From positions 1 through 64,000 of the forward strand of contig NZ_FNEI01000003.1 of NCBI RefSeq assembly GCF_900099975.1: a stretch of 64,000 bases of DNA, in the 5' to 3' direction. A program made the position numbers and the translations under genes. The DNA is from Arthrobacter cupressi (GTDB lineage: Bacteria; Actinomycetota; Actinomycetes; Actinomycetales; Micrococcaceae). Each line of letters opens with the position of its first letter. Within the stretch, counting starts at the first letter, position 1. The notes under the pieces are model-generated. The model had not been told where the DNA came from and did not search any database. It was given only the letters and a program-made list of their open reading frames with translations. Positions 43,487 through 63,647 of the stretch are shown here, in pieces.

Positions 43487-43503
43487 TGTCCCGATCTGGC
43501 ACA
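43487..43503. promoter_or_regulatory. candidate GAF-Fis operator, site A (permease)
   Basis: TGTCCCGATCTGGCACA fits the 7-3-7 dyad TGTCCCA-N3-TGGGACA with two changes. It is 63 bases upstream of the APC permease start. A near-identical copy (15 of 17) is at 48032-48048. Confidence 0.6.
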
Positions 43504-43566
43504 GCGTCAGCGGGGTGTCCGCTCGCTACTGTGATTCAGCACTCAGGATTTAGTGACGAGGACTAC

Positions 43567-45030
43567 ATGAACAACACCACCATTGAGGCGCCGAAGGTAG
43601 CGCGCCCCGCCCAGGAGAATCGGCTCAGCGGGAACATGGGAGTCGGGGAGCTCGTGATGAACGTGCTCGCGTTCTCGTCGCCGCTGGCAACTGTCGCCGG
43701 CACGCTGCCCGTCCTGCTGATGTTCAGCGGCCAGACGGCTCCGGCCATTTATATGTTGGTCACATTGATGTTGCTGATCTTCTCCGTCGGCTTCGTGAAG
43801 ATGAGCCGCAGCGTCCGCGGCGCGGGAGGTTTCTACTCCTTTGTCACTGCCGGTTTGGGCAAGCCTGCAGGCCTCGGAGGCGCCTTCTTGGCCCTCTTCG
43901 GCTACATCCTCATTGGATTCTTCGCCCCTTCGTTTTTCGGCGTGACCCTCCAGGGATTTGTCGTCAACACGCTCAACGGCCCCGGCGTTCCCTGGTACTG
44001 GTACGCGCTCGGCATCATCGCCGCCACCACAGTCCTTGCGTATAACCGCATCGACCTCTCTGCGAAGTTGCTCACGGCCGTCATGCTTCTCGAGGTGGCT
44101 GTCATCGTCGTCTTCGACGTGGCGTCATTCTCTGCGAACGGACTTGATGCTGTGCAAGGTGCAGGATTCGCCCTTCCCTCCCTCACTGATGCGAGCATCG
44201 GCCTCGCGCTGCTGTTCGCCGTCGGGAACTTCTTTGGCTTCGAAGCGACTGTGATCTACCGGGACGAGGTTAAAAACCCGGATAAGACGATCTCGCGGGC
44301 AACGTACCTGGCTGTCATTGGCATTGGCCTCTTCTACGCAGTTGCCGCCTGGGCTTTCATCGCCTTCCTCGGGCCAGGCAACGTACAGGCCGCGGCGGAA
44401 AGCAATACTGTGAATCTGTTCAACGACGCCGTTGCCGCATTGGCGGGCAAGATTTTCGCGGATGTTGCCATGATCCTGCTCATTACATCCGTCCTGGCAT
44501 GCATGCTGTCCATCCAGAACATCGCCGCACGGTACAGCTTCTCGCTCGCCGCCGACCATGCATTGCCGCCAGTCCTTGGACGGGTGCATCCCCGCCATAA
44601 GTCGCCGTACGTTTCGGCCCTTGCCGTCGGTCTCCTCTGGGCTGTGGCAACCGTGATTTTCACGGTTCTGGGTGTCGCGCCGGACGCCCTGTATCCCATC
44701 GCCTCGGGCAGCGGCACTTTTGCCGTGCTCCTGCTGATGTTCATCACCAGTTTTGCGGTGTTCGTCTACTTCCTCCGCCGCCGCGGTTCCGCGCCGGAGT
44801 CGGTCTGGAAGACCATCATCGCGCCGATCATCAGCGTGCTCTTCCTTGGCGCCATCACCTACCTGGCGATCACCAACTACCCGGACCTCATCGGAGGCTC
44901 GGCGGTGATGACTGTCATTTTCATGACCTTCACCTTCGCGCTGTTCTTTGGCGGCATCGCGTACGCATTCTTCCTCCGTTCAAAGCGCCCCGAAATCTAC
45001 GCGCGGCTCGGCCGGCGGAAAATCGACTGA
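43567..45030 (+). CDS. APC family amino acid/amine permease
   Basis: A 487-residue transporter with about 12 hydrophobic segments from residue ~28 to ~475. The N-terminal block NMGVGELVMNVLAFSSPLATVAG (core FSSPLATVAG), MSRSVRGAGGFYSFVTAGLGKPAG (core GAGGFYSFVTAGLG) and FFGFEATVIYRDEVKNPDKTI (core FEATVIYRDEVKNPDKTI) are the APC/YhdG-like signatures. ATG 43567 follows GAGGACTAC; long upstream in-frame codons are not membrane-like. It probably imports the nitrogenous substrate of the catabolic island. Confidence 0.92.
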   Translation: MNNTTIEAPKVARPAQENRLSGNMGVGELVMNVLAFSSPLATVAGTLPVLLMFSGQTAPAIYMLVTLMLLIFSVGFVKMSRSVRGAGGFYSFVTAGLGKPAGLGGAFLALFGYILIGFFAPSFFGVTLQGFVVNTLNGPGVPWYWYALGIIAATTVLAYNRIDLSAKLLTAVMLLEVAVIVVFDVASFSANGLDAVQGAGFALPSLTDASIGLALLFAVGNFFGFEATVIYRDEVKNPDKTISRATYLAVIGIGLFYAVAAWAFIAFLGPGNVQAAAESNTVNLFNDAVAALAGKIFADVAMILLITSVLACMLSIQNIAARYSFSLAADHALPPVLGRVHPRHKSPYVSALAVGLLWAVATVIFTVLGVAPDALYPIASGSGTFAVLLLMFITSFAVFVYFLRRRGSAPESVWKTIIAPIISVLFLGAITYLAITNYPDLIGGSAVMTVIFMTFTFALFFGGIAYAFFLRSKRPEIYARLGRRKID

Positions 45031-45069
45031 CGCTTGGAAGCGGTCATGTGGAGCAAAAGGGTCCGGCGC

Positions 45070-45717
45070 TCAGAACTCGATGCCGAGGACGGTTCGCGAA
45101 ATCAGGACCGCCCGGTCCGCGAGCTCCTTGAGCTCGGCGTCGTCGGACTCGGGTGATGCCCACCGCGTGGCTCCCTCGAGCAGCGTCATGACAACTTTGA
45201 CGTGCTCCCGAGGCTTCGGAAATCCCATGTCGTGCGCTGCCGCCACGTACATGTTCTCGTGGAGATCGATCCAGTCGTCCACTTGGGCGCGCAGGTCACG
45301 GGGGAGGATGCCGGCCATTCTGTCCGTCGCTACCAACAAGTCCCAGAGATTGCTCTCGGGCAGTCGCACCTGGCGCGTGAAGTGGAGCCTGACCATGGAG
45401 TCCCAGAATTCATCGGCCGAGGAGGCCGGACTCACGGCCTCGATCAGGGCGACGCCGAAACGATGGAAATGCCAGCGCAGCGACTCGGCCACGATCTCAT
45501 CCCTCCCCGCCGGAAAATGCGAGTAGAGGCTGGGCGGCTTGATGTTGACTGCGTTCGCAATGGTTCGCATGGACACGGAGTTGAAGCCATTGGCTATAGC
45601 CAGTTCGAGGAAAGCTTCGAGGATGTGCTGGCGAGCGGCTTTCTGCCCCGCCCAGTTCCACTCCTCAAGGCGGTGGACAAAGGCGTCAAGGGCGGCCTCG
45701 TATGACGTAACGCTCAT
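45070..45717 (-). CDS. TetR family transcriptional regulator
   Basis: A 215-residue repressor. Helix-turn-helix GFNSVSMRTIANAVNIKPPSLYSHFP (core SMRTIANAVNIKPPSLY) at residues ~42-67. The ligand domain is Trp- and His-rich. Start ATG 45717 is chosen because the preceding in-frame residues are not family-like. Convergent with the permease and divergent from the GAF-Fis regulator; an AT-rich dyad at 45823-45840 lies in the shared upstream region. Confidence 0.9.
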   Translation of the reverse strand: MSVTSYEAALDAFVHRLEEWNWAGQKAARQHILEAFLELAIANGFNSVSMRTIANAVNIKPPSLYSHFPAGRDEIVAESLRWHFHRFGVALIEAVSPASSADEFWDSMVRLHFTRQVRLPESNLWDLLVATDRMAGILPRDLRAQVDDWIDLHENMYVAAAHDMGFPKPREHVKVVMTLLEGATRWASPESDDAELKELADRAVLISRTVLGIEF

Positions 45718-46133
45718 AATTCCGTCATCGTAACAGCCAGGGGGTTGGTCACCCTTGCGGTCCATGGAAAGACGCCCCGGCGGCGCCGCTCGAATGCGCC
45801 AAATCCCGCAAAAAACCCTTCCCTAACGACCATTAGTTAGCTAAGCTGGATCTGGCAGGAAAGGGCACCTCCCTTGGAGCCCTAAGCGTGGTCTGAGCGG
45901 GAAGAGCAAGAACATGGTCACCGAATATCCGGGCGTGGGGGCCAGCCGGAGCGACGTCATCCTTGGCAGCGGCCTTTCAGGCATGGTGGCTGCATATATT
46001 CGTGCCAGGGCACTCGAGGATAATGCGGCCTCGAACGAAAACTGGAACGCCCAGTCTGTGTTCCGACGCAAGGCAGGCCGTGCCAGGAGGCCCTTCGCAT
46101 TCCGCACTCGCAGGACCGAAGAAGGCGGAGAAA
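45718..46133. other. divergent regulatory region between TetR and GAF-Fis genes
   Basis: 416 bases without a convincing gene. It contains the TetR-type dyad at 45823-45840 and the adjacent TTAGCTAA palindrome, and GGAG before the GAF-Fis start. A 77-codon open frame from 45914 has one G-S-G-L-S-G stretch but overlaps the GAF-Fis gene and is not trusted. Confidence 0.5.
45823..45840. promoter_or_regulatory. candidate TetR operator
   Basis: CTAACGACCATTAGTTAG: 5-bp outer arms CTAAC/GTTAG around an AT-rich centre, partly overlapped by TTAGCTAA. It stands out in GC-rich surroundings, 105 bases upstream of the TetR start. Confidence 0.5.
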
Positions 46134-47933
46134 ATGGCCGCGGCTGAAGTGCTGTCCCCCTGGACTCATGAGTCACTACGCGCAACTGATCGAGTTCGTG
46201 AGCTGTTCCTGATGCAACCTCACGCTGATCTGACGGGGATCCGGCCGATCGTGGCCCGCTCCTGGTACCGAAGCCGGGCCGCTGGAGTCGATGCCGTTGC
46301 CGATCGGGGATTCTTCGACGAGGGCCGGGTGGATGAATACACGATCCATGCCGCCGGCCCGCACCTGCAGAAGCTCGATGAGGTTGCGGCGGACTTGGGT
46401 GGATATGTAAGCCTGACGGCGCCTAACGGCGTGCTCGTGAAGGCGGACTTCCTGCGCGATGACGGCTTTCCCGCCGGCTACTCGCTGCTGGAGGAGAGCT
46501 GCGGCAGCAACGGGGAAGGGCTTGCCCTGGAAGAAGGACGGGGAGTCTGGCTGGCCCCTGAGGAACACTTCCGGGAGGACATGCGCGGCAACTGGTGCTT
46601 TGCGTCGCTGGTAAGGGACCCCTTCCACAACCGGGTGCGGGCCGTTATTGGCCTGACGCTTCCCGCCAACCGGGTGTCCACCCTTGAGCCTTCTTCAACG
46701 CTGCTGATGCTCGAAGGCGTAGCCTCACGAATCGAGCGCGACATCGAGGTACGGACTTCTTCCAGGGAGCGTGCGCTGCTTAGCGAATACCTGAGGATTT
46801 CCCGTCGAAGGGGCAACCGTGCCGTTATCGCACTGGACGGAAAAAACTCGCTCCTGAACGCTTCGGCGACCGCTTCATTGGAAGACAGCGACTTCTCGAT
46901 CATCTCGGGCTATGCCAAAGCCGTGATGTCCTCCGGCCGGGACATGACCTGCGAGGTAATGCTGCAGGGACCAGGGCCGGCCACCTTGGAAGTCTCCCCG
47001 GTGACGCTCTCAGCCGCGAATGTCGGGGCTATTGTCGTGGTCCGGCCCCACGCTCCATCCAAAGAACGTACCGTCGAAACCAAGAGCGTCCCGCAGCAGC
47101 TGGAAGGCGCCGGCCAAGGGACCGTGGATCGCTTGATGTCCCAGCTCGACGGGACGAGCACCGAGTTCAAGCGCACCCTGAATCTCGCTCGCAAGGCCGT
47201 TGACCAGGAACGGTCCGTGGTGATGATAGGTGAACTGGGCAGCGGAAAACGCCGCCTGGCCAGCGCCATCGCCTCGCTCCGGGGCGGTCAAATGGTGGTC
47301 GACGCGCGCAGCGGCGCGCTCAGGAATCCGCAGTTCAGGGATCTGGTTCACCGCGTGACAACGGAGCTGCCACAGACGCTGATCGTTGAGCATGCCGATG
47401 AACTCTCGCAGAACGAAGCCAGCGAGATAGCGCAGAGCCTGCGGGGCAACACAGCCACCAAGCTGATCTTCACCATTGCGCGGCCCACGGATGCCACATT
47501 GCTGCTCTCTGAGGCCTTTGACGTCCTTGAGATCTCCGTCGCCCCGCTGCGGAACAGGCGGGAAGATATCCCGCAACTCGCAAACGCCGTCGCCGAGGAA
47601 CTGGGAGAACGAAGGTTGTCCCGGAGGCTCATCACCACACTGACCCACGCCGACTGGCCGAGGAACATTGACCAGCTGCGGGCTGTGGTGTCGAACGCGG
47701 TTGAGCGTGCGGAAGGTGCCGAAGTCACCGTGGACGACCTGCCGCAAGGCTTCCACCGTGTCTTGACCAAGGGTCGGCTCTCGAGGCTGGAAGACGCCGA
47801 GCTCAGCGAACTCCGCAGCGCCCTCACGGAAGCGAACGGCAACCGAAGCCTGGCGGCAGAGACGCTCCAGATCGGCCGCTCGACGCTCTACCGCCGGATG
47901 GATTACTTCCGCAGCCGGGGCTTCGACCTCTAG
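46134..47933 (+). CDS. GAF-Fis transcriptional regulator (AcoR-like, sigma-54-independent)
   Basis: A 599-residue activator. Order: N-terminal helical segment with V-A-R-S-W-Y-R-S, GAF sensor (~residues 75-240; SYSLLEESCGSNGEGLALEEGRGVW-like core EESCGSNGEGLAL), PAS-like linker, a shrunken AAA domain with degenerate Walker A GELGSGKRR, then a Fis helix-turn-helix at the C-terminus (ANGNRSLAAETLQIGRSTLYR; core RSLAAETLQIGRSTLYRR). The sigma-54 contact motif GAFTGA is absent, as expected in Actinobacteria. Start ATG 46134 follows GGCGGAGAAA. It is the best candidate for the factor binding the shared 17-bp dyad in the island. Confidence 0.88.
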   Translation: MAAAEVLSPWTHESLRATDRVRELFLMQPHADLTGIRPIVARSWYRSRAAGVDAVADRGFFDEGRVDEYTIHAAGPHLQKLDEVAADLGGYVSLTAPNGVLVKADFLRDDGFPAGYSLLEESCGSNGEGLALEEGRGVWLAPEEHFREDMRGNWCFASLVRDPFHNRVRAVIGLTLPANRVSTLEPSSTLLMLEGVASRIERDIEVRTSSRERALLSEYLRISRRRGNRAVIALDGKNSLLNASATASLEDSDFSIISGYAKAVMSSGRDMTCEVMLQGPGPATLEVSPVTLSAANVGAIVVVRPHAPSKERTVETKSVPQQLEGAGQGTVDRLMSQLDGTSTEFKRTLNLARKAVDQERSVVMIGELGSGKRRLASAIASLRGGQMVVDARSGALRNPQFRDLVHRVTTELPQTLIVEHADELSQNEASEIAQSLRGNTATKLIFTIARPTDATLLLSEAFDVLEISVAPLRNRREDIPQLANAVAEELGERRLSRRLITTLTHADWPRNIDQLRAVVSNAVERAEGAEVTVDDLPQGFHRVLTKGRLSRLEDAELSELRSALTEANGNRSLAAETLQIGRSTLYRRMDYFRSRGFDL

Positions 47934-47949
47934 CCGAACACCCGGCATA

Positions 47950-47982
47950 GAAGGGCCGGCCATCGTGGATGGCCGGCCCTTC
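47950..47982 (+). terminator. terminator of GAF-Fis gene
   Basis: GAAGGGCCGGCCATC (47950-47964) pairs exactly with 47968-47982 around a 3-base loop, 16 bases after the stop codon. T-poor on the 3' side, but the stem is very strong. Confidence 0.75.
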
Positions 47983-48018
47983 GGGCTGCCCCGGGAGCCT
48001 GGGACCCCCAGGCACAGC

Positions 48019-48048
48019 TGTCCCACCTGTGTGTCTCGATCTGGCACG
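48019..48048. promoter_or_regulatory. candidate GAF-Fis operators, site B (two overlapping copies)
   Basis: TGTCTCGATCTGGCACG (48032-48048) matches site A in 15 of 17 bases. TGTCCCACCTGTGTGTC (48019-48035) has a perfect left half and poor right half; the centres are 13 bp apart. The pair lies 107 bases before the first gene of the six-gene operon. Confidence 0.6.
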
Positions 48049-48154
48049 GATATGCCTGTTGTTATCGCGCTGTACTTGAAATCACCCGAAACCGGCACCT
48101 TCCGAAGGGGTGCTGGCAGCGAACGAGGGTACGACACGAACAGGACGAGAAACT

Positions 48155-49102
48155 ATGACCCGCGATGCCCAGGGAACCATTCTTGTGGCCCCTCACCATT
48201 TCCCGAACCTGGACCGCGAGCATGCGCTTGCGGAAGAGTTCGGCTACAAACTCAATCCCGCGGCAGACGCAGTCGGCTTCCGCGCAGGGCTTCCTGAAGC
48301 CGACATTGTGATGATCACGCCTTACGCCAAACTTACCGCCGCGGATTTCCCGGTGATGCGCAAGTGCCGGGCCGTGATCCGCTACGGCATCGGCTACGAC
48401 AACATCGATGTTGCCGCAGCCACGGAAGCCGGCATTCCTGTATCCATCGTCCCGGGAACTGCTTCGGAAGAGGTCGCCTCGCACGCATTTGCCATGGGCC
48501 TCGCGCTGGCCCGGCGCCTGCCCGCCGGTGACGCCTCGATCCGCGACCTCGGATGGGCCGGAACCATCGGCTACGACACTCCGGTGCTCTCCGAACTCGA
48601 GGTCGGGGTTCTTGGAATGGGGCGAATTGGCCAGCACGTGGCGCGGATGTACCAAGCCGTTGGAGCGCGGGTACGGGCCTATGACCCCTTCGTCACGGAC
48701 AGCTTCGTGGAAATGACCGGACTCGAGGACGTATTGGAGAACTCCGACGTCGTCTCCCTGCATCTTCCCCTGAACGACGACACCGCAAACCTTGTCTCCG
48801 GAGACGTTCTGGCAAAGATGCGCAAGGGCGCCGTGGTCGTTAACGTCTCGCGCGGAGGCCTCATCGATGAAGCCGCCCTCGCAGCAGCGCTGACCTCCGG
48901 GCACATTGCCGGTGCGGGGATCGATACTTTCGCCCACGAGCCCCTCGGTCCGGAGCACCCGCTCCGTTCCGCTCCCAACGCCATCCTCACGCCGCATATC
49001 GCCTGGCGTTCGAACCGCTCGACGGGCGCCCTGCAGGACGGCGCGGTGGAGCGGGTGCGGCTCGCACTCACCGGACAGCCGCTGATCGATCTTGTGAACT
49101 GA
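48155..49102 (+). CDS. D-2-hydroxyacid dehydrogenase, CtBP-like
   Basis: A 315-residue NAD-dependent dehydrogenase of the C-terminal-binding-protein subgroup. CRAVIRYGIGYDNIDVAAATEAGIPV (core YGIGYDNIDV), LEVGVLGMGRIGQHVARMYQ (G-x-G-x-x-G), catalytic Arg in VVNVSRGGLIDE, Glu in DTFAHEPLG and His in ILTPHIAWRS. ATG 48155 follows AGGACGAGAAACT. First gene of a six-gene operon; probably reduces or oxidises a 2-keto/2-hydroxy acid intermediate. Confidence 0.92.
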   Translation: MTRDAQGTILVAPHHFPNLDREHALAEEFGYKLNPAADAVGFRAGLPEADIVMITPYAKLTAADFPVMRKCRAVIRYGIGYDNIDVAAATEAGIPVSIVPGTASEEVASHAFAMGLALARRLPAGDASIRDLGWAGTIGYDTPVLSELEVGVLGMGRIGQHVARMYQAVGARVRAYDPFVTDSFVEMTGLEDVLENSDVVSLHLPLNDDTANLVSGDVLAKMRKGAVVVNVSRGGLIDEAALAAALTSGHIAGAGIDTFAHEPLGPEHPLRSAPNAILTPHIAWRSNRSTGALQDGAVERVRLALTGQPLIDLVN

Positions 49103-49122
49103 AAAGACTGGAGAAGGACGAA

Positions 49123-50421
49123 TTGGGAACGAACACACACTTGGAACACGCCGCAGAGCGCGATCTTGCGGAGGATCCGCACCTGCGCAGGGGACCCCGG
49201 GGTTTCCCCCTGCTGCCGGGTGGCTACGGACGGTCAACCTACTACACCGGTGCACCGAGCCCCTATGCGATCCGGGGCGAAGGCTACCGGGTGTGGGATG
49301 ACCGCGGCCGCGAACTGATCGATGCAAACAACAACTTCACATCACTGATCCACGGCAACGCCCACCCCGAGATCACGGAAGCAGCCACGAAAGCCCTCTC
49401 AAGCGGAGCCAGTTGGGGCATCCCCAACCTCTACGAATGGGACCTTGCAGACCTGCTGCTTTCACGCCTGCCGGACCTCGACCAAGTGCGCTTTACGAAC
49501 TCCGGCACTGAAGCGGTGATGTCGGCGATCCGGATCGCGCGGGCCAGCACCGGCCGGGAGCGGGTCGTTGTCACCAAGGGCGGCTACCACGGCACCTCCG
49601 AGGTCGCGCTGGTGCCTGGCGGTCCGAGCTACACCCGGGGCGTCACCCAGGGCGTCATCGACGACGTCACTGCAGTGCCGCTCAATGACATCCAGTTCCT
49701 GCGCCAGGCTGTTGAAGCCGCACCGGACGCGTACGCGGCCATCATTCTCGACCTCCTGCCCAACCGGGCCGGCCTGCTGAGCATCTCCGAGGATTTCGTA
49801 CGGGAGGCGCGCGATCTCGCGACGCGCTTCGGCATTGTGCTGATCATCGACGAGGTCATCAGCTTGCGACTCGGTTACAACGGCCTGAGCGGAGAATACG
49901 GCGTCGCGCCCGATCTACTCACCACCGGCAAACTGATTGGCGGCGGCTTCGCAGTTGGGGCAGTGGTCGGCCGGGCAGAGCTCATGGCGGAGGTCGACCC
50001 GACCCGCCCTGGCAGCCTTCCCCACGGTGGCACGTTCTCGGGAAACCCCGTCAGCATGGCCGCCGGCGCGGCCGCACTGCGCCTCTACCCGCACGAGGAA
50101 GTGCAGCGCCTGAACCGCCTGGGGGACACCACCCGCGAGGCTGTCCAGTCCAAAATCGCCGAGGCGGGTTGGGAAATCCGTGGCCGTGGCTCGCTGCTCC
50201 GGGCAGTTCCCGGAGGAGCGGAAAAGGTCAGTGAGGACATCCAGCACCGCCTGTGGTGGGCAAGCTACGAGCGCGGCCTGCTTGGTTCGCCGGCCAACCT
50301 GCTCTCCCTCTCCACGCCCATGAACGAACACGTCGCCGCTGACATCGCTGAGCGCCTCGCCGACGCCGTGCTTGCGGTGGCCGGAAGCGCCGAAGCAAAA
50401 GACGGGAGCCAGGAACTGTGA
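49123..50421 (+). CDS. class III aminotransferase (GSA-aminomutase-like)
   Basis: A 432-residue PLP enzyme. FTNSGTEAVMSAIRIARASTGR (core NSGTEAVMSAIRIAR) is the phosphate turn; LIIDEVISLRLGYNG holds the PLP-binding Asp; the Schiff-base Lys is in LLTTGKLIGGGFAVGAV (core TGKLIGGG). The latter resembles glutamate-1-semialdehyde aminomutase relatives, but heme-gene context is lacking; a role as transaminase is more likely here. TTG 49123 is preceded by AGAAGGACGAA. Followed after a 4-base overlap by the FAH gene. Confidence 0.9.
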   Translation: MGTNTHLEHAAERDLAEDPHLRRGPRGFPLLPGGYGRSTYYTGAPSPYAIRGEGYRVWDDRGRELIDANNNFTSLIHGNAHPEITEAATKALSSGASWGIPNLYEWDLADLLLSRLPDLDQVRFTNSGTEAVMSAIRIARASTGRERVVVTKGGYHGTSEVALVPGGPSYTRGVTQGVIDDVTAVPLNDIQFLRQAVEAAPDAYAAIILDLLPNRAGLLSISEDFVREARDLATRFGIVLIIDEVISLRLGYNGLSGEYGVAPDLLTTGKLIGGGFAVGAVVGRAELMAEVDPTRPGSLPHGGTFSGNPVSMAAGAAALRLYPHEEVQRLNRLGDTTREAVQSKIAEAGWEIRGRGSLLRAVPGGAEKVSEDIQHRLWWASYERGLLGSPANLLSLSTPMNEHVAADIAERLADAVLAVAGSAEAKDGSQEL

Positions 50422-51317
50422 AGCTCATCTCCTACGAACACGAATCCGGTATCCGGGGCGGGGTCCTGATTGAAGACTCGGTCTACGACCTCGAGCTCCT
50501 TCTGCAGGGGTCGAAGGAAGCAGTCCACGGCGCAACGGCCTCCGTCCGAGAATTCCTCGAACTCTACGGTGAACGGATCGCGGCGATCTCTGCCGAGGTG
50601 ACCGCGCTCGTTGCGCAGGACCCGGTGGCCCGGGTCGGCGCGCTGTCCGACGTTCGGATCACGACCCCGGTCACGGACCCGGCGAAGGTGCTCTGCATCG
50701 GACTCAACTACAAGGACCACGTGGCGGAAACCGGACGGGCATTCCCCGAATACCCGGACGTCTTTGCCAAGTTCGCCTCCACCATGATCGGTCCCGAGGA
50801 CGAGATCGGCGGGGCCCGCGTCAGCGAAAACCTCGACTTCGAAGGGGAGGTCGCAGTGGTCATCGGGCGCCGCGCAAGCGACGTTTCGGAAGCCGAAGCA
50901 CTCCAGTACGTCGCCGCCCTCGCACCGTTGAACGACGTGACCGCCCGCGATCTCCAGTACCGCGGAACCCAGTGGCTGGCCGGCAAAGCCGTTGATGGCT
51001 CAACGCCCTGGGGACCGGCCCTGGTCACCCTCGATGAAATCGGAGACCCGCAAACACTTGAGCTGGTCACACGGGTGAACGGCGTTGAAATGCAGCGCTC
51101 CAACACGCGTCACCAGATCTTCCCCATCGCGCGCATCGTTTCCTACTTGTCGAGCTTCCTCACGCTCGAGCCGGGTGACGTCATCGCGACCGGGACACCG
51201 CAAGGCATCGGTGCGAAGCGGAACCCGCCCGTCTGGCTGGAGCCGGGCGACACGGTGGAAATCGAGATCGAAAAAGTGGGGCTGCTTCGCAACCGCGTCG
51301 GCAAACCCCAGCTCTAA
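50418..51317 (+). CDS. fumarylacetoacetate hydrolase family protein
   Basis: A 299-residue metal-dependent C-C hydrolase or decarboxylase/tautomerase. VLCIGLNYKDHVAETG (core IGLNYKDHVAE), E-x-E metal ligands in NLDFEGEVAVVIGRRA and Asp in FAHs RDLQYRGTQWLAGKAVDGSTPWGP (core GKAVDGSTPWGP), LSSFLTLEPGDVIATGTPQGIG (core DVIATGTPQGIG) are all intact. GTG 50418 overlaps the aminotransferase stop. Likely cleaves an acylpyruvate-type product or acts on an oxo-acid in the pathway. Confidence 0.92.
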   Translation: MKLISYEHESGIRGGVLIEDSVYDLELLLQGSKEAVHGATASVREFLELYGERIAAISAEVTALVAQDPVARVGALSDVRITTPVTDPAKVLCIGLNYKDHVAETGRAFPEYPDVFAKFASTMIGPEDEIGGARVSENLDFEGEVAVVIGRRASDVSEAEALQYVAALAPLNDVTARDLQYRGTQWLAGKAVDGSTPWGPALVTLDEIGDPQTLELVTRVNGVEMQRSNTRHQIFPIARIVSYLSSFLTLEPGDVIATGTPQGIGAKRNPPVWLEPGDTVEIEIEKVGLLRNRVGKPQL

Positions 51318-51351
51318 ACCCCTGCAAACTCTACGAAAGTAACAAAGAACC

Positions 51352-53442: not shown

Positions 53443-53444
53443 CC

Positions 53445-55205: not shown

Positions 55206-55226
55206 GACACCAGCTCTCGCAACTAG

Positions 55227-55258
55227 TTCCGGGGCGGGGTATATTCCTCGCCCCGGAA
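55227..55258 (+). terminator. hairpin between hydantoinase B and Gfo/Idh
   Basis: TTCCGGGGCG (55227-55236) pairs with CGCCCCGGAA (55249-55258); loop 12 bases; GGTTTCAATAA follows. Could terminate part of the operon or tune expression of the last gene. Confidence 0.6.
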
Positions 55259-55288
55259 GGTTTCAATAACTAAGTACGGAGATTCACC

Positions 55289-56422: not shown

Positions 56423-56433
56423 CAGCCGAAAAA

Positions 56434-56475
56434 CAGCAGCCGACGGCGGTACGTACGTGCCGCCGTCGGCTGCTG
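56434..56475 (+). terminator. terminator of the hydantoinase operon
   Basis: CAGCAGCCGACGGCGG (56434-56449) pairs perfectly over 16 bp with 56460-56475; 10-base loop TACGTACGTG; TTGTG follows. It starts 11 bases after the Gfo/Idh stop codon. Confidence 0.8.
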
Positions 56476-56500
56476 TTGTGCTGTCCTACGCCGGAAACTG

Positions 56501-56517
56501 CGTCCCAAACTGGGACA
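56501..56517. promoter_or_regulatory. candidate GAF-Fis operator, site C (IolD-like operon)
   Basis: CGTCCCAAACTGGGACA matches the 7-3-7 dyad in all but the first base. It lies 85 bases before the start at 56603, between the terminator and the gene. Confidence 0.65.
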
Positions 56518-56602: not shown

Positions 56603-58552
56603 ATGACTAGCACAGCCGCTGCTGATATCGGCACCGACGTCGGCACCAAGAACGTCCGCCGCCGCACTGTCGCGCAAGCGATCGTTGAGTACCTTCAGGT
56701 CCAGTACAGCGAACTCGACGGTGAGCGGAGGCGCCTGGTGGCCGGCATGTACGGCATTTTCGGCCACGGTAACTCCGTTGGCCTCGCGCAGGGAATTGAC
56801 GAGTACGGTGTGGACTTCCCCCACTATCAGGGCAAGAACGAGCAGTCGATGGTCCACGCCGCGATCGGCTTCGCGAAGGCTTCCAACCGCGCCGCCACCC
56901 TTGCCTGCACAGCCTCTGCCGGCCCGGGATCCACCAACATGATTTCGGGTGCTGCCACGGCCACCACCAACCGCCTTCCTGTGCTCCTGTTCCCCGCGGA
57001 CATCATCAACAACCGTTTCGGTGATCCGGTGCTGCAGCAGATTGAGCACCCCGTTGAACGGGATGTCTCCGCGAACGACTGCTTCCGTCCGGTCAGCCGC
57101 TACTTCGACCGGATCACCCACCCGGCACAGTTGCTGTCGACGCTGCCGGAGGCAATGCGCGTCCTCACCGATCCCGTGGAAACCGGTGCCGTAGTGGTGT
57201 GCCTGCCGCAGGACATCCAGGGTGCGGAATTCGACTTCCCGGAGTCCTTCTTCACCCCGCGCGTCTGGCACATCCGCCGCCGCCCGGCCGTGGAGGATGA
57301 GATCCGCGATGCTGCCGAGATCATCCGCAATGCGCAGCGTCCCCTGCTCATCGCAGGCGGCGGCGTTCGCTACTCGAAGGCACAGGAGGAACTGGCCCGC
57401 TTCAGCACAGAGTTCGGCATCCCCGTCTCCGAGACTTTTGCCGGCAAGGGAAGCGGCCCGATCAGCGAACTCAACGTTGGCGCCCTGGGCGTCACCGGAA
57501 CGGTTGGTGCCAATGAGATCGCCGACGGCGCCGATTGTGTCATCACCGTGGGTTCCCGCCTCCAGGACTTCATCACGGCTTCCCACTCGCTGTTCCAGAA
57601 CCCGGACGTGAAGTTCGTCCACCTCAACGTGAGCTCGTTCGATGCACACAAGATGGGTTCGTTCCCGGTGGTGGGCGATGCCAGGCTGTCCCTGTCTGCG
57701 CTGCGGGAATGGCTCGCCGCGGCGGGCTACGGTACCTCGGAAGCCTTCCGCAGCGACGTTGCGGATGCCCAGAAGGCCACTCGCGAAGTTCGCAAGCACG
57801 ACCTCCAGGCTTTCCCCGGCGAGAAGATGAGCCAGGCTCAGGTCATCGAGGTGCTCAACAAGCAGGCGACCAGCGAAGATGCCCTGATCCTGGGTTCCGG
57901 CGGCGTCGTCGAAGGTATCCACAAGGCCTGGGACCCGTCCAACGGCACTGAAATCCACTTTGAATACGCCAACTCCTGCATGGGGCACGAAATCCCTGCA
58001 GGTCTCGGATACAGGCTAGCCCGCCCGGATGCCCCCGGCGAAGTATTCGTGCTGATCGGCGATGGCACGTACCTCATGCAGCCGACCGAACTCGTCACCG
58101 CGGTGCAGGAACGCAAGAAGATCATCACCGTCGTGATCGACAACCGCGGACACCAGTGCATCTGGCCGCTCCAGGTCTCCAAGGGTGGACCTGGACGTGA
58201 GTTCGGCACCCAGTACCGCGAACGCGGCAACACGTCCGGCCGGCTGGACGGGGCGGTCCTTGAATTCGATATCGCCGCCAATGCGGCCAGCATGGGTTGC
58301 GCCGCGTGGTCCACGACGACGATCGAGGAGTTCTCTGCCGCCCTCACCGAGGCGCGGAAGGTCGAAGGACCGGCCGTCATCGTCGCGAAGGTGGAGCCCT
58401 GGCGCTACCTCTCCGGCAACGGCTCCTTCTGGGACGTCGGAGTTCCGATGACCTCCCAGCGGCCCGGGAGCCAGGAGGGGACCGCCAAGCACCTTGAGGG
58501 CCGTGCCCGCCAGCGTTACTACGCAGCGACCACCGCTCCCGAAGCAGGTTGA
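56603..58552 (+). CDS. IolD-like ThDP-dependent enzyme (trihydroxycyclohexanedione hydrolase family)
   Basis: A 649-residue thiamine-diphosphate enzyme close to 3D-(3,5/4)-trihydroxycyclohexane-1,2-dione hydrolase (IolD). Signature blocks are GMYGIFGHGNSVGLAQG (core GIFGHGN), the ThDP-activating Glu80 in GKNEQSMVHAA, CTASAGPGSTNMISGAATATTNRLPVL (core AGPGSTNMISGAATATTNR) and GDGTYLMQPTEL with VVIDNRGHQCIW (Mg-ThDP G-D-G ... N). IolD opens a six-membered 1,2-dione ring in inositol breakdown; other inositol genes are not in this window, so a related ring or acyloin substrate is possible. ATG 56603 follows TTTAGGAGAACGC. Confidence 0.88.
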   Translation: MTSTAAADIGTDVGTKNVRRRTVAQAIVEYLQVQYSELDGERRRLVAGMYGIFGHGNSVGLAQGIDEYGVDFPHYQGKNEQSMVHAAIGFAKASNRAATLACTASAGPGSTNMISGAATATTNRLPVLLFPADIINNRFGDPVLQQIEHPVERDVSANDCFRPVSRYFDRITHPAQLLSTLPEAMRVLTDPVETGAVVVCLPQDIQGAEFDFPESFFTPRVWHIRRRPAVEDEIRDAAEIIRNAQRPLLIAGGGVRYSKAQEELARFSTEFGIPVSETFAGKGSGPISELNVGALGVTGTVGANEIADGADCVITVGSRLQDFITASHSLFQNPDVKFVHLNVSSFDAHKMGSFPVVGDARLSLSALREWLAAAGYGTSEAFRSDVADAQKATREVRKHDLQAFPGEKMSQAQVIEVLNKQATSEDALILGSGGVVEGIHKAWDPSNGTEIHFEYANSCMGHEIPAGLGYRLARPDAPGEVFVLIGDGTYLMQPTELVTAVQERKKIITVVIDNRGHQCIWPLQVSKGGPGREFGTQYRERGNTSGRLDGAVLEFDIAANAASMGCAAWSTTTIEEFSAALTEARKVEGPAVIVAKVEPWRYLSGNGSFWDVGVPMTSQRPGSQEGTAKHLEGRARQRYYAATTAPEAG

Positions 58553-58559
58553 GCAGGCA

Positions 58560-58589
58560 GGGCGGGACCGTCGGAGGACGGTCCCGCCC
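58560..58589 (+). terminator. hairpin after IolD-like gene
   Basis: GGGCGGGACCGTC (58560-58572) pairs exactly with 58577-58589; 4-base loop; CGCCTTGCT follows. It may partly separate expression of the IolD-like and aldehyde dehydrogenase genes. Confidence 0.6.
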
Positions 58590-58652
58590 GCCTTGCTATC
58601 AGCTCACCGGACCCCAGGACAACCGAACCAAAGACAAAAGGAGCACCGCATA

Positions 58653-60008
58653 ATGGGAGCATTTGCCGTTATTGACCCGGCCACGGGCGCGACTCACGCT
58701 GAGTACCCCGCGGCCACCGATGCAGAGGTCGAGGCAGGTCTCAGCGCTGCGCAGAAGACCTACCAGGAATGGGCACGCACCACCACCGTGGCTGAGCGGG
58801 CTGCGCTGGCCCAACGCCTGGCTGACCTCTTTGTTGAGCGCAAGGACAAGCTCGCAGCCATCATCAACCGGGAGATGGGCAAACCCCTCCACCAAGCCGT
58901 TGGGGAGGCCGAGTTTTCCGGTTCCATCGCGGCAGCGTTTGCAGAGCACGCCGAGGAATGGCTTGCCGACGAGGAACTCGAGGTCGCTGACGGCCTGAGG
59001 AGCTTCTTCCGGTACCAGGGCGTTGGGGTGATCCTCGGCATCATGCCCTGGAACTACCCCTACTACCAGGTGGCCCGCTTCGCGATCCCCAACATCATCC
59101 TGGGCAACACCGTCATTGTCCGCCACGCCAGCCAGTGCCCGGAGTCGGCGCTTGCGCTGGAGGAACTCTTCCGCGATGCAGGTTTCCCCGAGGGCGCCTA
59201 CGTCAACCTTTTCGCCACCCACCAGCAAATCTCCGACATCATTGCCGATGACCGGGTGCAGGGCGTTTCGCTGACAGGCTCGGAGCAGGTTGGCGCCATC
59301 GTGGCTGAGCAGGCCGGACGCGCGCTGAAGAAATGTGTGCTGGAACTCGGCGGTGCTGACGTGTTCCTGGTGCTCGACACTGACGACATTGACCTCGCGG
59401 TGAAGAAGGCCGTGATGGGCCGCATGGGCAACACCGGGCAGTCCTGCAACGGCTCAAAGAGGATCGTCGTGCTGGACGAGTACTTCGACGAGTTCTCGGC
59501 GAAGTTCAAGGCAGCGATTGCCGGCCAGTCCTACGAGAACGGTGACTTCGGGCCGCTCTCTTCGGATTCGGCCACCAGGTTCCTGACCGCGCAGGTGCGG
59601 GGCGCCCTTGAGCAGGGTGCTGAAATCCTGGTGGGCAACAACGAGCCCCAGGGCAACGTCTTCACTCCGACGGTGATCACCAATATCACCCCCTCGATGG
59701 ATGTCTACAGCGAGGAACTCTTCGGGCCGGTGGCGCAGCTTTACAAGGTAGGCAGCGACGAGGAAGCGATCAAGCTCGCGAACTCTTCGCCGTACGGCCT
59801 TGGTTCCGTGATTATCTGCGACGATCTTGAGCGCGCCGAGCGCGTCGGCAACCAGCTCGACGTCGGCATGGTCTTCGTCGGCGCCTATGACCTCAGCGGC
59901 GCCGACGTTCCGTTTGGCGGCGTGAAGAAGTCCGGTTACGGGCGGGAACTGGGCAAGGTCGGCATGCTGGAGTTCGCGAACAAGAAGTTGTTTCGTTTCG
60001 CGAAGTAG
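58653..60008 (+). CDS. succinate-semialdehyde-type aldehyde dehydrogenase
   Basis: A 451-residue NAD(P)-dependent aldehyde dehydrogenase near GabD1-type enzymes. VGVILGIMPWNYPYYQVARF (core MPWNYPYYQV), the base Glu in LELGGADVFLVLD, and catalytic Cys in NTGQSCNGSKRIVV (core GQSCNGS) are intact. ATG 58653 follows AAAAGGAGCACCGCATA; upstream codons are not family-like. Shares the promoter region of the IolD-like gene. It would oxidise an aldehyde produced by the aminotransferase or the ThDP enzyme. Confidence 0.92.
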   Translation: MGAFAVIDPATGATHAEYPAATDAEVEAGLSAAQKTYQEWARTTTVAERAALAQRLADLFVERKDKLAAIINREMGKPLHQAVGEAEFSGSIAAAFAEHAEEWLADEELEVADGLRSFFRYQGVGVILGIMPWNYPYYQVARFAIPNIILGNTVIVRHASQCPESALALEELFRDAGFPEGAYVNLFATHQQISDIIADDRVQGVSLTGSEQVGAIVAEQAGRALKKCVLELGGADVFLVLDTDDIDLAVKKAVMGRMGNTGQSCNGSKRIVVLDEYFDEFSAKFKAAIAGQSYENGDFGPLSSDSATRFLTAQVRGALEQGAEILVGNNEPQGNVFTPTVITNITPSMDVYSEELFGPVAQLYKVGSDEEAIKLANSSPYGLGSVIICDDLERAERVGNQLDVGMVFVGAYDLSGADVPFGGVKKSGYGRELGKVGMLEFANKKLFRFAK

Positions 60009-60020
60009 ACCGCTTCGCTG

Positions 60021-60056
60021 AAAGGAGGCCGGATCTCGCGATCCGGCCTCCTTTTT
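60021..60056 (+). terminator. rho-independent terminator of IolD-ALDH operon
   Basis: AAAGGAGGCCGGATC (60021-60035) and its exact complement (60040-60054) with loop TCGC, followed by TT. This is the best textbook terminator in the window, only 12 bases after the stop codon; it also lies close to the 3' end of the opposite-strand monooxygenase gene. Confidence 0.9.
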
Positions 60057-60075
60057 CACTTCTTGACGTAGCCGC

Positions 60076-61902
60076 TCAGCCGTTCGGGTCTGTAAGCGGC
60101 ATGGTGCCCGCTTCCATTGCCGCAAGCTGCAGCGCGAGCAGCTTCGAGTAGAACCTGCCGTCGCCGATCGCGAGCGAAACCATGAACCACAACTGGTCGA
60201 CTCCGCTGCGGCGCCAGAGCCGCCCGTATTCGCGGTCCTCACCAACCATCGCGAATTCCCCCACCCGATCGGCGATGTTGTCGCCGAGCACCTCGCGCAC
60301 CACCGTCGGGGCGCCGCGGTAGCCAGTTGCAAAGACGACGAGATCAGCCTCGATGGACTGGCCGCCGTCGAGCACGACCCCGGTGGCGGTGAGGCCCTCG
60401 ACGCTACCGTGACGGAGCTTAATGGTGCCGTCGATGATCAATTCGGACGCCCCGGCGTTGTAGTAATAGCCAGTCGCGTTCTGGCCAAAGATCAGTCCGA
60501 GGACTCCCTGCCCGCTCGGTCCGTCACTTAGCTCGAAACCTGCTTCGACAAGGCCATCCAGGAGCTCCCGGTCCATTGCCTTGACCAGTTCCACATGCTT
60601 CGGACCGTGTGCAGGGAGTGCCCCGAATGGCGTGGCGGCATTGACCAGATCCGCCTCCTCAGTGCTGTACGTGCCACCGACGTGGTTGGCGTGCATAACC
60701 GCATGGAACGTCGAGGTATTCATGACGAATGTTCCCGAACGCTGAATCATGGTGACATCGACGCCGTGCTCCGCCAGATCTTGGGCGATGTCGTGTCCGC
60801 TCACGCCGGACCCGACAACCACGGCCCGCTTTCCGCGCCACTCGGCGTGGCCACGGTAGTCAACCGCGTGAATCACCATTCCCCGGAATTCGTCCTGCCC
60901 GGGAAGGCACGGAAGATTCGGCGCCGCATTCATCCCTGTCGCGAACACGAGATGCCTCGGACTCACCCGGCGGGCAGATCCATCGGCCCGCCTGACATCC
61001 ACATTCCAACGTCCCGCAGCCGCATCGAACTCCGTGGCCTCCACGTTGGTTCCAGCCCAGACCGGGAGATCCAAGAGCGTTGCGTAGCTCTCCAGGAAAT
61101 CGCCTAGCTTGTCTTTCGGTGTGAAACGCGGCCAGGTGGATGGAAACGGTAGGTAGGGCAAATGATCGGATGCGAGTGGAGTGTGCAGCGCAAGCGAGCT
61201 GTAGCGCTTGCGCCAGTTGTCGCCCACCCGCTCGTTCTGCTCCACGACCAGCGCGGGGACACCAAGCGCCCTCAGTCGAGCTGCCAGCATGAGCCCATTG
61301 TGGCCGGCGCCCAAAATGAGGACTGCCGGATCATGTGACTCGAAGTCCCGGTCGAGCCCTTCGCTCCAACTCAGGCGGTCCTGAACCGGGCCGTGGGTCT
61401 TCCCGGCGGGACGGGCATCGAGGTGCCGCTCCGGATGGGTGTCGATCGAGTCGAGCGCGAGAACGAAATTGGCCGCACGCCAAGCACCGTCTTCCTCCCG
61501 AACGAGCTTCACATGGCCGAGGCCTCCTCCATGTCCTGTCCGAAACTGGAGAAACGACGTTAGGGACACCTGGCCCCCTTCCTCAGCGAAAGTGGCGGAG
61601 TTGCCGGCACGGACCTCAAGCGAAATCGGCGGTGTCGAGCCGGGTGCGGTCAGGAGCCCTGCGATTTCCTCGCGTCCAACGGCGTTGCGGAATTCCCAGG
61701 CCAAGGCCAGGAGGTCGCGAGCGACTCCGTCCCGTTGGAAAAAGTCCGCCACATTGGTTGCGTTTCGCGACGCCATCGCGGATCGGAGCGCGACGGCCCA
61801 TTCATGCACGATTTCCTCGGGCGCTTTGATCGAAGCGAACGCGTTCGCGGCAGCTGGTACGGCTACATCAGTCATCTGAAGTGGTTCCTTTGTGTCAGTC
61901 AT
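60076..61902 (-). CDS. flavin-containing monooxygenase with NTF2-like N-terminus
   Basis: A 608-residue enzyme. Residues ~20-160 look like a SnoaL/NTF2-fold module (VGREEIAGLLTAPG, WRAANFVLALDSIDTHP), then an FMO: FAD motif GAGHNG (198-203), NADPH motif GSGVSGHDIA, and FRGMVIHAVDYRG, i.e. F-x-G-x-x-x-H-x-x-x-Y, the FMO rather than Baeyer-Villiger form. Start is ambiguous: ATG 61902 and an in-frame ATG at 61875 each have AAGGAACCA upstream, produced by a 27-base duplication. Second gene of an SDR-FMO operon on the minus strand. Confidence 0.88.
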   Translation of the reverse strand: MTDTKEPLQMTDVAVPAAANAFASIKAPEEIVHEWAVALRSAMASRNATNVADFFQRDGVARDLLALAWEFRNAVGREEIAGLLTAPGSTPPISLEVRAGNSATFAEEGGQVSLTSFLQFRTGHGGGLGHVKLVREEDGAWRAANFVLALDSIDTHPERHLDARPAGKTHGPVQDRLSWSEGLDRDFESHDPAVLILGAGHNGLMLAARLRALGVPALVVEQNERVGDNWRKRYSSLALHTPLASDHLPYLPFPSTWPRFTPKDKLGDFLESYATLLDLPVWAGTNVEATEFDAAAGRWNVDVRRADGSARRVSPRHLVFATGMNAAPNLPCLPGQDEFRGMVIHAVDYRGHAEWRGKRAVVVGSGVSGHDIAQDLAEHGVDVTMIQRSGTFVMNTSTFHAVMHANHVGGTYSTEEADLVNAATPFGALPAHGPKHVELVKAMDRELLDGLVEAGFELSDGPSGQGVLGLIFGQNATGYYYNAGASELIIDGTIKLRHGSVEGLTATGVVLDGGQSIEADLVVFATGYRGAPTVVREVLGDNIADRVGEFAMVGEDREYGRLWRRSGVDQLWFMVSLAIGDGRFYSKLLALQLAAMEAGTMPLTDPNG

Positions 61903-61951
61903 TGAAATGGTTCCTTCGGGGTGGGGGAGCATTGACTGCGTCGCCGCTGCT

Positions 61952-62701
61952 CTATTGGGCGGTATAGCCGCCGTCGATAAGGAGGTCTGCGCCGGTGACG
62001 TAGCTGGCTTCGTCGCTTGCCAAATACAGGACGCCGTAGCTCACTTCGATGGGCTGGGCGGCACGCTTCATGGGCGTCGCATGGCTGAACTCGCGGTTGG
62101 AATCTTCGCCTTCCTCAAGCGCCATGGGGGTCATCACAAGTCCGGGAGAGACTGAATTGACCCTGACTCCGCGGTGTGCGTATTCCATCGCGGCGGCGCG
62201 CGTCATCATTTTCACTGCGCCCTTCGATGCCTGGTAGGAGAACCCGCCAGGGTTTCCGACGGTTCCGTTGATCGAGCACGTGTTGACGATCGCGCCCCCT
62301 CCGCTTCGCTCAATTGCGGGGGCGCCGTACTTGAGGCCGAGGAAAACACCCTGTTGATTGATCGCGGTCGTCTTTGACCAGCCATCCAGGCCCTCTTCCG
62401 CGACGGACTTCATCGTCCCGACGATGCCGGCGTTGTTGATCAGGATGTTGACGCGTCCCCAGCGCTGTTCGGCGGCCGAGATCACGGTCTCCCAATCACC
62501 CTCTGAAGCGACATTCAAGTGCATGTAGTGCACGTCAAAGCCGGAGTGCCGCAGATCCCGGGCTACGGCTTCGCCGCTTTCATCGAGCATGTCGGTGACC
62601 AGCACCGACGCGCCTTCTTGAGCGAAAAGCCGCGCGTGCGACTCGCCTTGCCCCCTCGCGCCGCCGGTGATGATCGTTACCTTGCCCTGCACACGGCCCA
62701 T
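61952..62701 (-). CDS. SDR family oxidoreductase
   Basis: A 249-residue short-chain dehydrogenase. GGARGQGESHARLFA (cofactor loop G-x-x-x-G-x-G), INNAGIVGTM, catalytic Ser in NTCSINGTVG and Y-Q-A-S-K in FSYQASKGAVKMM. An Asp after beta-2 (VTDMLDE) points to NAD preference. ATG 62701 follows CTAAGGAGAAAATC. Divergent from another SDR; site E lies midway. Probably oxidises an alcohol made by the neighbouring monooxygenase. Confidence 0.92.
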   Translation of the reverse strand: MGRVQGKVTIITGGARGQGESHARLFAQEGASVLVTDMLDESGEAVARDLRHSGFDVHYMHLNVASEGDWETVISAAEQRWGRVNILINNAGIVGTMKSVAEEGLDGWSKTTAINQQGVFLGLKYGAPAIERSGGGAIVNTCSINGTVGNPGGFSYQASKGAVKMMTRAAAMEYAHRGVRVNSVSPGLVMTPMALEEGEDSNREFSHATPMKRAAQPIEVSYGVLYLASDEASYVTGADLLIDGGYTAQ

Positions 62702-62783
62702 GATTTTCTCCTTAGTGATCTTGGGTTGCTGCTGAATGCGTCTCACGCTTTGGAAGAGGCTACTGAGCGCATTCCGCCGGATT

Positions 62784-62800
62784 TGTGCCAGAAAGGTACA
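62784..62800. promoter_or_regulatory. candidate GAF-Fis operator, site E (divergent SDRs)
   Basis: TGTGCCAGAAAGGTACA matches the 7-3-7 dyad with lower identity (TGT-CCA left, GG-ACA right). It lies 82 bases from the 61952-62701 start and 83 from the 62884 start, so one site can serve both operons. Confidence 0.5.
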
Positions 62801-62883
62801 TTTTTGGCCCCTTGTTGCAGACCACCATGGGCGGACAACGCGCGGCACCGGGTTGCGTGTAGTCGAAAGGGAACGGTCTGGAT

Positions 62884-63624
62884 ATGAGGCTCGAAGGAAA
62901 GACGGCAATCGTCACTGGGGCGGCATCGGGGCAAGGGCTGGCAACCGTGCGGGCGCTTGTGAGACACGGCGCCAACGTCATGGCCGCGGATATCGACGAT
63001 GCCGGCCTCGAAGACCTGGCGAGGGAAAACGATCGCATTGCGATCCAGCGCTGCGATGTCAGCAAGCCGGCAGATGTCGAGCGGCTCGTAGACGCAGCGG
63101 AGCAGCAGTTCGGGGCGGTCCACGCGATGCTCAATTGCGCCGGTTTCCTTCGCGCCGCCTCTGTGCTGGAGACGACCGAGGACATGCTGGATCGGATCGT
63201 CGACATCAATTTGAAGGGCGTCTTCTACGGCTGCAAGTACGTCATCCCGGCCTTGCAGAGGGCAGGCGGCGGATCGATCGTCAACTGGGGGTCTGTGAAC
63301 TCCATGGTTGCTGAACCGGACATTGCGGCGTACTCGGCGTCGAAAGGCGCGGTCTTGATGATCACGAAGTCCGTCGCCGTGGAATACGCCAAGGACAACA
63401 TCAGGGCGAACTGTCTCTGCCCGGGAGGTGTGCGCACTCCGATGGTCGAGGCTTTCTTTGACGACAATTTCCTCAATGACGAGCAGGCGCAGCGCGCCTA
63501 CCAGCCGCTTGGCCTGATCGTCCCGGAGGAAGTGGCCGACGTCGCGGTTTTCCTCGTCTCCGATGACTCGCGCAAGATGACCGGGTCCGCTGTGGTGGTG
63601 GACGCCGGCTATACGGCGATCTGA
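62884..63624 (+). CDS. SDR family oxidoreductase
   Basis: A 246-residue short-chain dehydrogenase. Cofactor motif GAASGQG near residue 12, AADIDDAG (NAD-type Asp), MLNCAGFLRAA, Ser in VNWGSVNSMVA and Y-S-A-S-K in AAYSASKGAVLMI; ends TGSAVVVDAGYTAI. ATG 62884 has no strong ribosome site (GAACGGTCTGGAT). Different from its divergent neighbour: about a third identical by eye. Single-gene unit. Confidence 0.9.
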   Translation: MRLEGKTAIVTGAASGQGLATVRALVRHGANVMAADIDDAGLEDLARENDRIAIQRCDVSKPADVERLVDAAEQQFGAVHAMLNCAGFLRAASVLETTEDMLDRIVDINLKGVFYGCKYVIPALQRAGGGSIVNWGSVNSMVAEPDIAAYSASKGAVLMITKSVAVEYAKDNIRANCLCPGGVRTPMVEAFFDDNFLNDEQAQRAYQPLGLIVPEEVADVAVFLVSDDSRKMTGSAVVVDAGYTAI

Positions 63625-63630
63625 GGCAGA

Positions 63631-63647
63631 TGTCCCACCCTGGGACA
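63631..63647. promoter_or_regulatory. candidate GAF-Fis operator, site D (terminal ALDH)
   Basis: TGTCCCACCCTGGGACA is a perfect 7-3-7 inverted repeat and the best match in the window. It is 84 bases upstream of the ATG at 63732, almost the same distance as site C from its gene. Confidence 0.7.

Follow-up and report, generated by a model that had tools for sequence, protein, structure and literature searches.

Which protein reads a palindrome that recurs before the genes of one catabolic island in Arthrobacter cupressi? We analyzed the first 64 kb (positions 1 to 64,000, referred to as the window) of contig NZ_FNEI01000003.1, here C23, from a 4.06-Mb genome assembled in 34 contigs. The element is a 17-bp dyad with the strict consensus TGTCCCA-N3-TGGGACA. 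A preliminary description of this DNA had placed five copies in intergenic gaps, 63 to 107 bases from start codons; all five were found there under the gene starts we chose, at recomputed distances of 64, 107, 86, 83/84 and 84 bases. From sequence comparison we consider it likely that the dyad is the operator of GAF-Fis-type activators that work independently of sigma-54 and bind at a class II position. The dyad precedes operons, often lies at a fixed distance from a -10 element and travels with one regulator family; it is therefore very likely the switch site of these regulators.

The five dyads of the window each face predicted target genes. TGTCCCGATCTGGCACA (43487..43503, plus strand; two mismatches to the strict consensus) precedes an APC-type amino acid permease gene (43567..45030, plus strand; Pfam AA_permease_2). 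The weak dyad TGTCTCGATCTGGCACG (48032..48048, plus strand; four mismatches) stands before genes for a 2-hydroxyacid dehydrogenase, a class III aminotransferase, an FAA hydrolase, hydantoinase A and B, and a GFO/IDH oxidoreductase (48155..56422, plus strand), a presumed operon judged by gene spacing. CGTCCCAAACTGGGACA (56501..56517, plus strand; one mismatch) precedes genes for an IolD-type thiamine pyrophosphate enzyme (NCBIfam TIGR04377, 758.8 bits, cut-off 715) and an aldehyde dehydrogenase (ALDH; Pfam Aldedh), which together span 56603..60008 on the plus strand. TGTGCCAGAAAGGTACA (62784..62800, no strand assigned; three mismatches) lies in the divergent gap between SDR and FMO genes (60076..62701, minus strand) and a second SDR gene (62884..63624, plus strand). 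For the first of these SDR genes we chose the start at 62701; its open reading frame (ORF) reaches 62908. The perfect dyad TGTCCCACCCTGGGACA (63631..63647, plus strand; no mismatch) precedes a further ALDH gene (63696..64000, plus strand; ORF from 63696, likely ATG at 63732) that runs beyond the window to C23:65261 and is followed after 30 bp by the gene for a GAF-Fis regulator (C23:65292-67115).

The ALDH gene at the window end had been taken for the last unit of the island, but dyad units continue beyond it, and the set of five grew to eleven with sites at 67133, 70147, 73931, 76803, 79984 and 83002 on the same contig. Four of the eleven are weak (48032, 67133, 79984 and 83002). Under the chosen gene starts, 11/11 sites lie between genes, in a stretch with 7.6% non-coding DNA; with the longest ORFs, site 62784 falls inside the SDR ORF and site 79984 at the start of an oxidase ORF.

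Are these dyads more than chance palindromes or RNA hairpins, i.e., terminators or leader structures? Chance is the reading suggested by the strict pattern, which showed no enrichment. At up to three mismatches the window alone held 4 matches versus 2.68 expected (Poisson P 0.28), and the whole genome 70 versus 98 for the reversed control; a loose scan would therefore have missed the signal. TGTNCCANNNTGGNACA, in contrast, had three exact genome matches, all on C23, and seven at up to one mismatch, six of them in C23:43487-76819 (P 2e-12 under uniform placement). We drew a refined motif, TGTNYCANNNTGRNACA (TGTNYCA-N3-TGRNACA), from A. cupressi, Streptomyces and Rhizobium sites. All four of its exact genome matches lie within the island. 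With one mismatch allowed, nine of ten genome matches fell in the 39.5 kb of C23:43487-83018 and one on contig C31 (C31:83462), compared with four matches for the reversed control. The corresponding P of 8e-18 for nine of ten in the island is optimistic, because the motif had been derived from those same sites. Outlier matches on contigs C18, C25 and C29 were dropped as regulon members, as no TAnnnT was present within 90 bp on either side.

Clustering thus argues against chance, as do the conservation in relatives and the -10 spacing described below. Hairpins are opposed by the asymmetry of several sites, in which the hairpin is broken, and by the position of the dyad upstream of the predicted start, so that it would not be transcribed from the predicted promoter. 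Chance or RNA structure hence appears extremely improbable. The genome-wide scan bore out the idea of a single regulon insofar as the dyads form one set that is nearly confined to the island. That regulon would extend past the window, since the dyad stretch starts in the window and reaches 19 kb beyond its end, and a TetR-type second layer, treated below, would have to be added. As judged from sequence, the dyads outline one candidate regulon over about 40 kb of catabolic genes.

The same island, whole or in part, is present in Arthrobacter celericrescens, in Arthrobacter S39 (two partial copies) and on plasmid StoSoilB13-2, with parts in a further genome, G152. A core of SDR, aminotransferase, FAA hydrolase, ALDH, GAF-Fis, APC permease and 2-hydroxyacid dehydrogenase genes was found in Streptomyces carpinensis; its counterpart on plasmid pPR1 of Rhizobium leguminosarum is less conserved. 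The S39 copies (genome G690) lie on contigs C8 (L037, L027, L028) and C10 (L038, L029, L030).

Across nine promoters, excluding A. celericrescens, the dyad was 91% identical, compared with 45% in the 30 bp upstream and 57% in the 20 bp downstream; the 91% is biased upward because the best match within about 330 bp was taken (second best 8-12 of 17 letters). Dyad identity exceeded that of both flanks in 25/25 of these comparisons. They left out the SDR1, GFO2 and FAD-oxidase directions as well as the APC1 row of G152, which is the same place as its APC3. Even the weak 48032 site retained 16-17 of 17 letters in the loci of five relatives. A half-site, TGTCCCA (48019..48025, plus strand), lies 13 bp 5' of this dyad and was kept, at 11-13 bp, in 6/6 aligned loci; it may compensate for the weak site.

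At up to two mismatches we counted 11 dyads in the A. celericrescens locus, 8 and 6 in the C10 and C8 copies of S39, 8 in StoSoilB13, 5 in Streptomyces and 3 in Rhizobium. Genome-wide, at up to one mismatch, 6/7 matches in A. celericrescens lay on the island contig, 8/10 in S39 in its two islands and 4/8 in Streptomyces in the locus (reversed controls 3, 1 and 2 matches, respectively). On StoSoilB13-2, 5/5 exact matches were within the island.

The dyads share a promoter geometry. TAnnnT starts 21-23 bp past the dyad in 9 of 17 oriented sites, i.e., in about half of them, and nowhere else in 90 bp. The corresponding P is 7e-15 with the rate of a 116-kb stretch and 2e-10 with the rate of the island intergenic regions. 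The 17 sites comprise twelve oriented sites of A. cupressi (with 62784 and 70147 oriented both ways and 83002 omitted) and five of Streptomyces; five oriented Rhizobium sites were not counted. A -10-like score peaked in the 4-base bins starting 20 and 21 bp past the dyad, a peak reached by 0/2000 shuffles. In the window, predicted -10 elements are TACTGT at 43527..43532 (plus strand, 23 bp past the dyad, in a stretch common to related APC promoters), TAGCCT at 62757..62762 (minus strand, 21 bp away on the SDR/FMO side of the dyad) and TAGCCT at 63669..63674 (plus strand, 21 bp past the dyad). A -35 box was not seen at the sites, where the mean best match was 2.0/6 versus 2.5 by chance. With the standard -10 position and assumed start sites, the dyad centre was computed at -42 to -44. 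This TAnnnT spacing would put the dyad near -43, over the position normally taken by a -35 box, rather than at a remote enhancer further upstream.

A site in place of the -35 box is what leads us to class II activation, in which the bound regulator most likely recruits the housekeeping polymerase. Overlap with the -35 region would equally suit a GAF-Fis protein that acts mainly as a repressor at the dyad, blocking this region until an inducer releases it. Such a repressor would, however, face promoters that have no recognisable -35 box to repress, which suits dependence on an activator. We regard repression as unlikely.

Two proteins, not the single GAF-Fis regulator described before, are candidates for reading the dyad. 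GAF-Fis 1 is encoded at 45963..47933 (plus strand; ORF from 45963, likely start 46134) and has a degenerate AAA+ domain, a Walker A motif (GELGSGK) and an HTH_8 domain; GAF-Fis 2 is the protein encoded behind the ALDH gene at C23:65292-67115. They share 34% identity. A search of the A. cupressi genome with GAF-Fis 2 gave three proteins at E<=0.001, i.e., the two island regulators, both with HTH_8, and a protein on contig C34 with a GAF domain and no HTH_8. Among the recognised island regulators, two of GAF-Fis and two of TetR type, the GAF-Fis type is the only one to recur in every dyad-bearing island locus compared. A GAF-Fis regulator as partner of the dyad, as first supposed, is consistent with this recurrence, with two candidates instead of one. 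The GAF-Fis proteins found in the Streptomyces and Rhizobium stretches were all of the GAF-Fis 2 type. In G152, which has three exact dyads, a relative of GAF-Fis 1 was the only one at E<=1e-60. The C8 copy of S39 has GAF-Fis 1 and TetR; GAF-Fis 2 was not found in the stretches read. All 11/11 aligned regulators have the same recognition helix, IGRSTLYR, through which GAF-Fis 1 and 2 could both bind the dyad.

In Pfam, GAF-Fis 1 and 2 scored above cut-off for HTH_8 and AAA_lid_14 and below cut-off for the Sigma54_activ models. Walker A is retained in the island regulators, and solved AAA+ activators matched best at the lid and the helix-turn-helix (HTH). A structure model of the A. celericrescens orthologue (mean pLDDT 58), poor in its N-terminal half and hence used only for the AAA/HTH part, gave 1ojl (ZraR) as best Foldseek match (E 1.8e-10). 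A. celericrescens also provided the nearest named relative that we found for GAF-Fis 2 (95% identity; very near records may be absent). The exact GAFTGA string was absent from 11/11 island-type regulators. Sigma-54 (PF04552) gave 0 matches in the 34 contigs of the A. cupressi genome (completeness 100), compared with matches in 4 of 14 control genomes. No Pfam GAF match was obtained at E<=1 in GAF-Fis 1, GAF-Fis 2 or the Streptomyces relative. PF01590 (GAF) was matched in a related protein from region L074, which is similar to the island regulators (29% over 623 residues), and in part of the related protein from region L048; the GAF label of the island proteins is thus a putative one, derived from their resemblance to relatives, among them the L074 protein.

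Could one of the TetR-type proteins bind the dyad instead? TetR operators are palindromes near promoters, and the island has two TetR genes, one divergent from GAF-Fis 1 (45070..45765, minus strand; Pfam TetR_N) and one at C23:83404-84078. A different palindrome, CTAACGNNCGTTAG, adjoins these TetR genes. In the window its copy is the predicted TetR-type operator CTAACGACCATTAG (45823..45836, plus strand) in the divergent gap between TetR 1 and GAF-Fis 1; the others lie at C23:83357-83370 before the second TetR gene and at C23:84150-84163 before an APC permease gene. These are the three genome matches of CTAACGNNCGTTAG at up to one mismatch, all in the island; as the reversed control also gave three, the count is not enriched and it is the placement that matters. 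CTAACGNNCGTTAG is retained in the Arthrobacter islands. In the Streptomyces and Rhizobium loci it had no match at up to one mismatch (one at two mismatches in Rhizobium), and neither TetR had a homologue in these stretches (tblastn, E<=1e-15), though dyads are present. Given their separate palindrome and the persistence of dyads where TetR homologues were not found, we rejected these two island-encoded TetRs, though not regulators encoded elsewhere in the genome, as dyad binders; that another regulator, chiefly one of these two, binds the dyad is highly unlikely. The TetR-type operator likely forms a second regulatory layer.

Does the dyad accompany GAF-Fis proteins outside the island? In an exact-dyad scan, 29 of 295 family genomes had a match, and we read 31 regions (36 sites in 27 genomes) outside A. 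cupressi (G000) and G152. A different GAF-Fis-type protein was encoded in 8 of the 31 regions (L055-L059, L074, L077 and L078) versus 0 of 16 control stretches (Fisher P 0.025). GAFTGA was absent from 8/8 of these proteins, read as stop-to-stop frames (in L057 the HTH lies in another frame). Five of the eight regions had dyad and TAnnnT at a distance of exactly 22 bp. L056, L057 and L077 have two dyads each, one with nAnnnT at 22 bp and the other without; a hydantoinase-like gene adjoins the dyads in L056 and L057. L075 and L076 have TAnnnT at 22 bp and no GAF-Fis gene in the stretch, and their genomes have one elsewhere (L074 and L078). The remaining 21 regions include L052 and L053, in each of which a tandem dyad is accompanied by TAnnnT at 21 or 23 bp, L072, where TAnnnT is at 20 bp, and 18 that have neither. 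Overall, nAnnnT lay at 22 bp in 10 of 13 family dyads, for which orientations were chosen after the spacing result had been seen.

GAF-Fis 2 relatives at E<=1e-70 were found in A. cupressi only among 396 genomes of the phylum, and GAF-Fis relatives at 1e-60 in 2 of 295 family genomes; both limits are strict, and more distant GAF-Fis proteins exist beyond them. We lean slightly towards a broader reading, in which a dyad with a -10 element at 22 (21-23) bp is a general promoter code of sigma-54-independent GAF-Fis regulators in Actinobacteria, perhaps beyond the phylum. An NtrC-type fold without sigma-54 contact would then serve as a class II activator, and the DNA word would be kept at about 30% regulator identity.

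Several observations weigh against the dyad as a GAF-Fis operator. The identities reported for it are those of best matches within about 330 bp, with second-best matches reaching 8-12 of 17 letters, and a paralogous promoter is involved in one or more of the APC comparisons (APC1 of the C10 copy of S39). Relatives of one genus have common ancestry. The reversed control gave 2, 1, 2, 1, 0 and 2 matches at up to two mismatches in the loci listed above, in the order A. celericrescens, S39 C10, S39 C8, StoSoilB13, Streptomyces and Rhizobium. Three dyad matches at this threshold lie inside genes, two in A. celericrescens and one in S39 C10, and half of the eight genome-wide Streptomyces matches fall outside the locus. 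Rhizobium adds little, with one site at zero and two at two mismatches versus two reversed-control matches at up to two, and with two exact matches versus one control for a motif that had used its sites. As to the geometry, 8 of the 17 oriented sites are without TAnnnT at the expected place and have a weaker -10 or none, i.e., those of the 2-hydroxyacid dehydrogenase, IolD (CGTCCCAAACTGGGACA), SDR2, APC2, SDR3 and ABC units and two of Streptomyces. In the family, the eight positive regions represent some four regulator lineages, the 16 controls are a small set whose positions the analyst chose, and 3 of the 13 dyads misfit the spacing despite post hoc orientation. No GAF-Fis protein was encoded in the stretches read from 23 of the 31 exact-dyad regions, so that chance or other proteins also account for exact dyads. 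For the tandem dyads of L052:9995-10036, L053:8061-8102 and L054:9961-10001, spaced 24-25 bp apart, no GAF-Fis gene was found in the stretches read.

From about 43 to about 88 kb, the island encodes four APC permeases, a class III aminotransferase, an FAA hydrolase and hydantoinase A/B, which is caprolactamase-like below the curated cut-off. Further genes are those for GFO/IDH oxidoreductases, the IolD-type enzyme (over cut-off), ALDHs, SDRs, an FMO, an IlvD/Edd dehydratase, 2-hydroxyacid dehydrogenases, an FAD oxidase and a sugar-type ABC transporter. Judged by these enzymes, a guess at the substrate would be amino-sugar or cyclitol-like compounds. Two of the APC permease promoters (43487-43566 and C23:73931-73993) look duplicated, with the dyad, TAnTGTGATTCAGCACTCA and the leader in common. 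At about 56431-56477, 3' of the GFO/IDH gene, lies a long GC-rich inverted repeat (AACAGCAGCCGACGGCGGTACG...) that is conserved in relatives and resembles a terminator separating the hydantoinase operon from IolD.

We propose the following mechanism for activation at the dyad, in which binding, activation, ligand and the assignment of regulators to sites are predictions. Both island GAF-Fis regulators would probably bind through their common Fis-type recognition helix, and the dyad would cover about -51 to -35, replacing the -35 box. The bound regulator would most likely recruit the housekeeping RNA polymerase, free of sigma-54, to promoters with a -10 and without a -35 element. A metabolite of the pathway probably serves as the signal and would be detected by the GAF-like region at the N-terminus. 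Because GAF-Fis 2 is encoded downstream of the perfect dyad and the ALDH gene, it would amplify itself. The gene for GAF-Fis 1 shares its upstream gap with the divergent TetR gene, and this gap also holds the distinct TetR-type operator.

How does this compare with known systems? NtrC-type enhancer-binding proteins such as NifA, which has the upstream site TGT-N10-ACA, are alike in their C-terminal Fis-type HTH_8, an AAA+ remnant with Walker A and a palindromic TGT...ACA site. They differ in that the island regulators have no GAFTGA, sigma-54 was not found in the genome, and the site lies at about -43 instead of far upstream. VpsR, DhaR and TyrR are similar in combining AAA+ and HTH without GAFTGA, and VpsR reportedly binds at a class II position; their sensor regions differ from those of the island regulators, as does their DNA word, and the hosts of the island regulators are actinobacterial. 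In an excerpt of PMC3162934, TyrR, DhaR and VpsR are named as GAFTGA-defective NtrC relatives and Actinobacteria are said to be without a sigma-54 system. VpsR acts with sigma-70 RNA polymerase in vitro according to part of a review that also calls it sigma-54-dependent (PMC9303241). AcoR-type regulators of Actinobacteria share Walker A and HTH with the island proteins. One of them is SLINC_1037, assigned to the AcoR family with Walker A and HTH in the accessible part of PMC10763038, which gives no operator for it. Our literature search, mostly without subscription full texts, found no assignment of the dyad to an AcoR/GAF-Fis-type regulator.

NtrC-like proteins of Actinobacteria are often named sigma-54-dependent. 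For such regulators the dyad offers a specific candidate operator that is open to testing, together with a promoter geometry from which one can predict how an NtrC-like protein might operate without sigma-54. Their regulons would thereby become readable from sequence.

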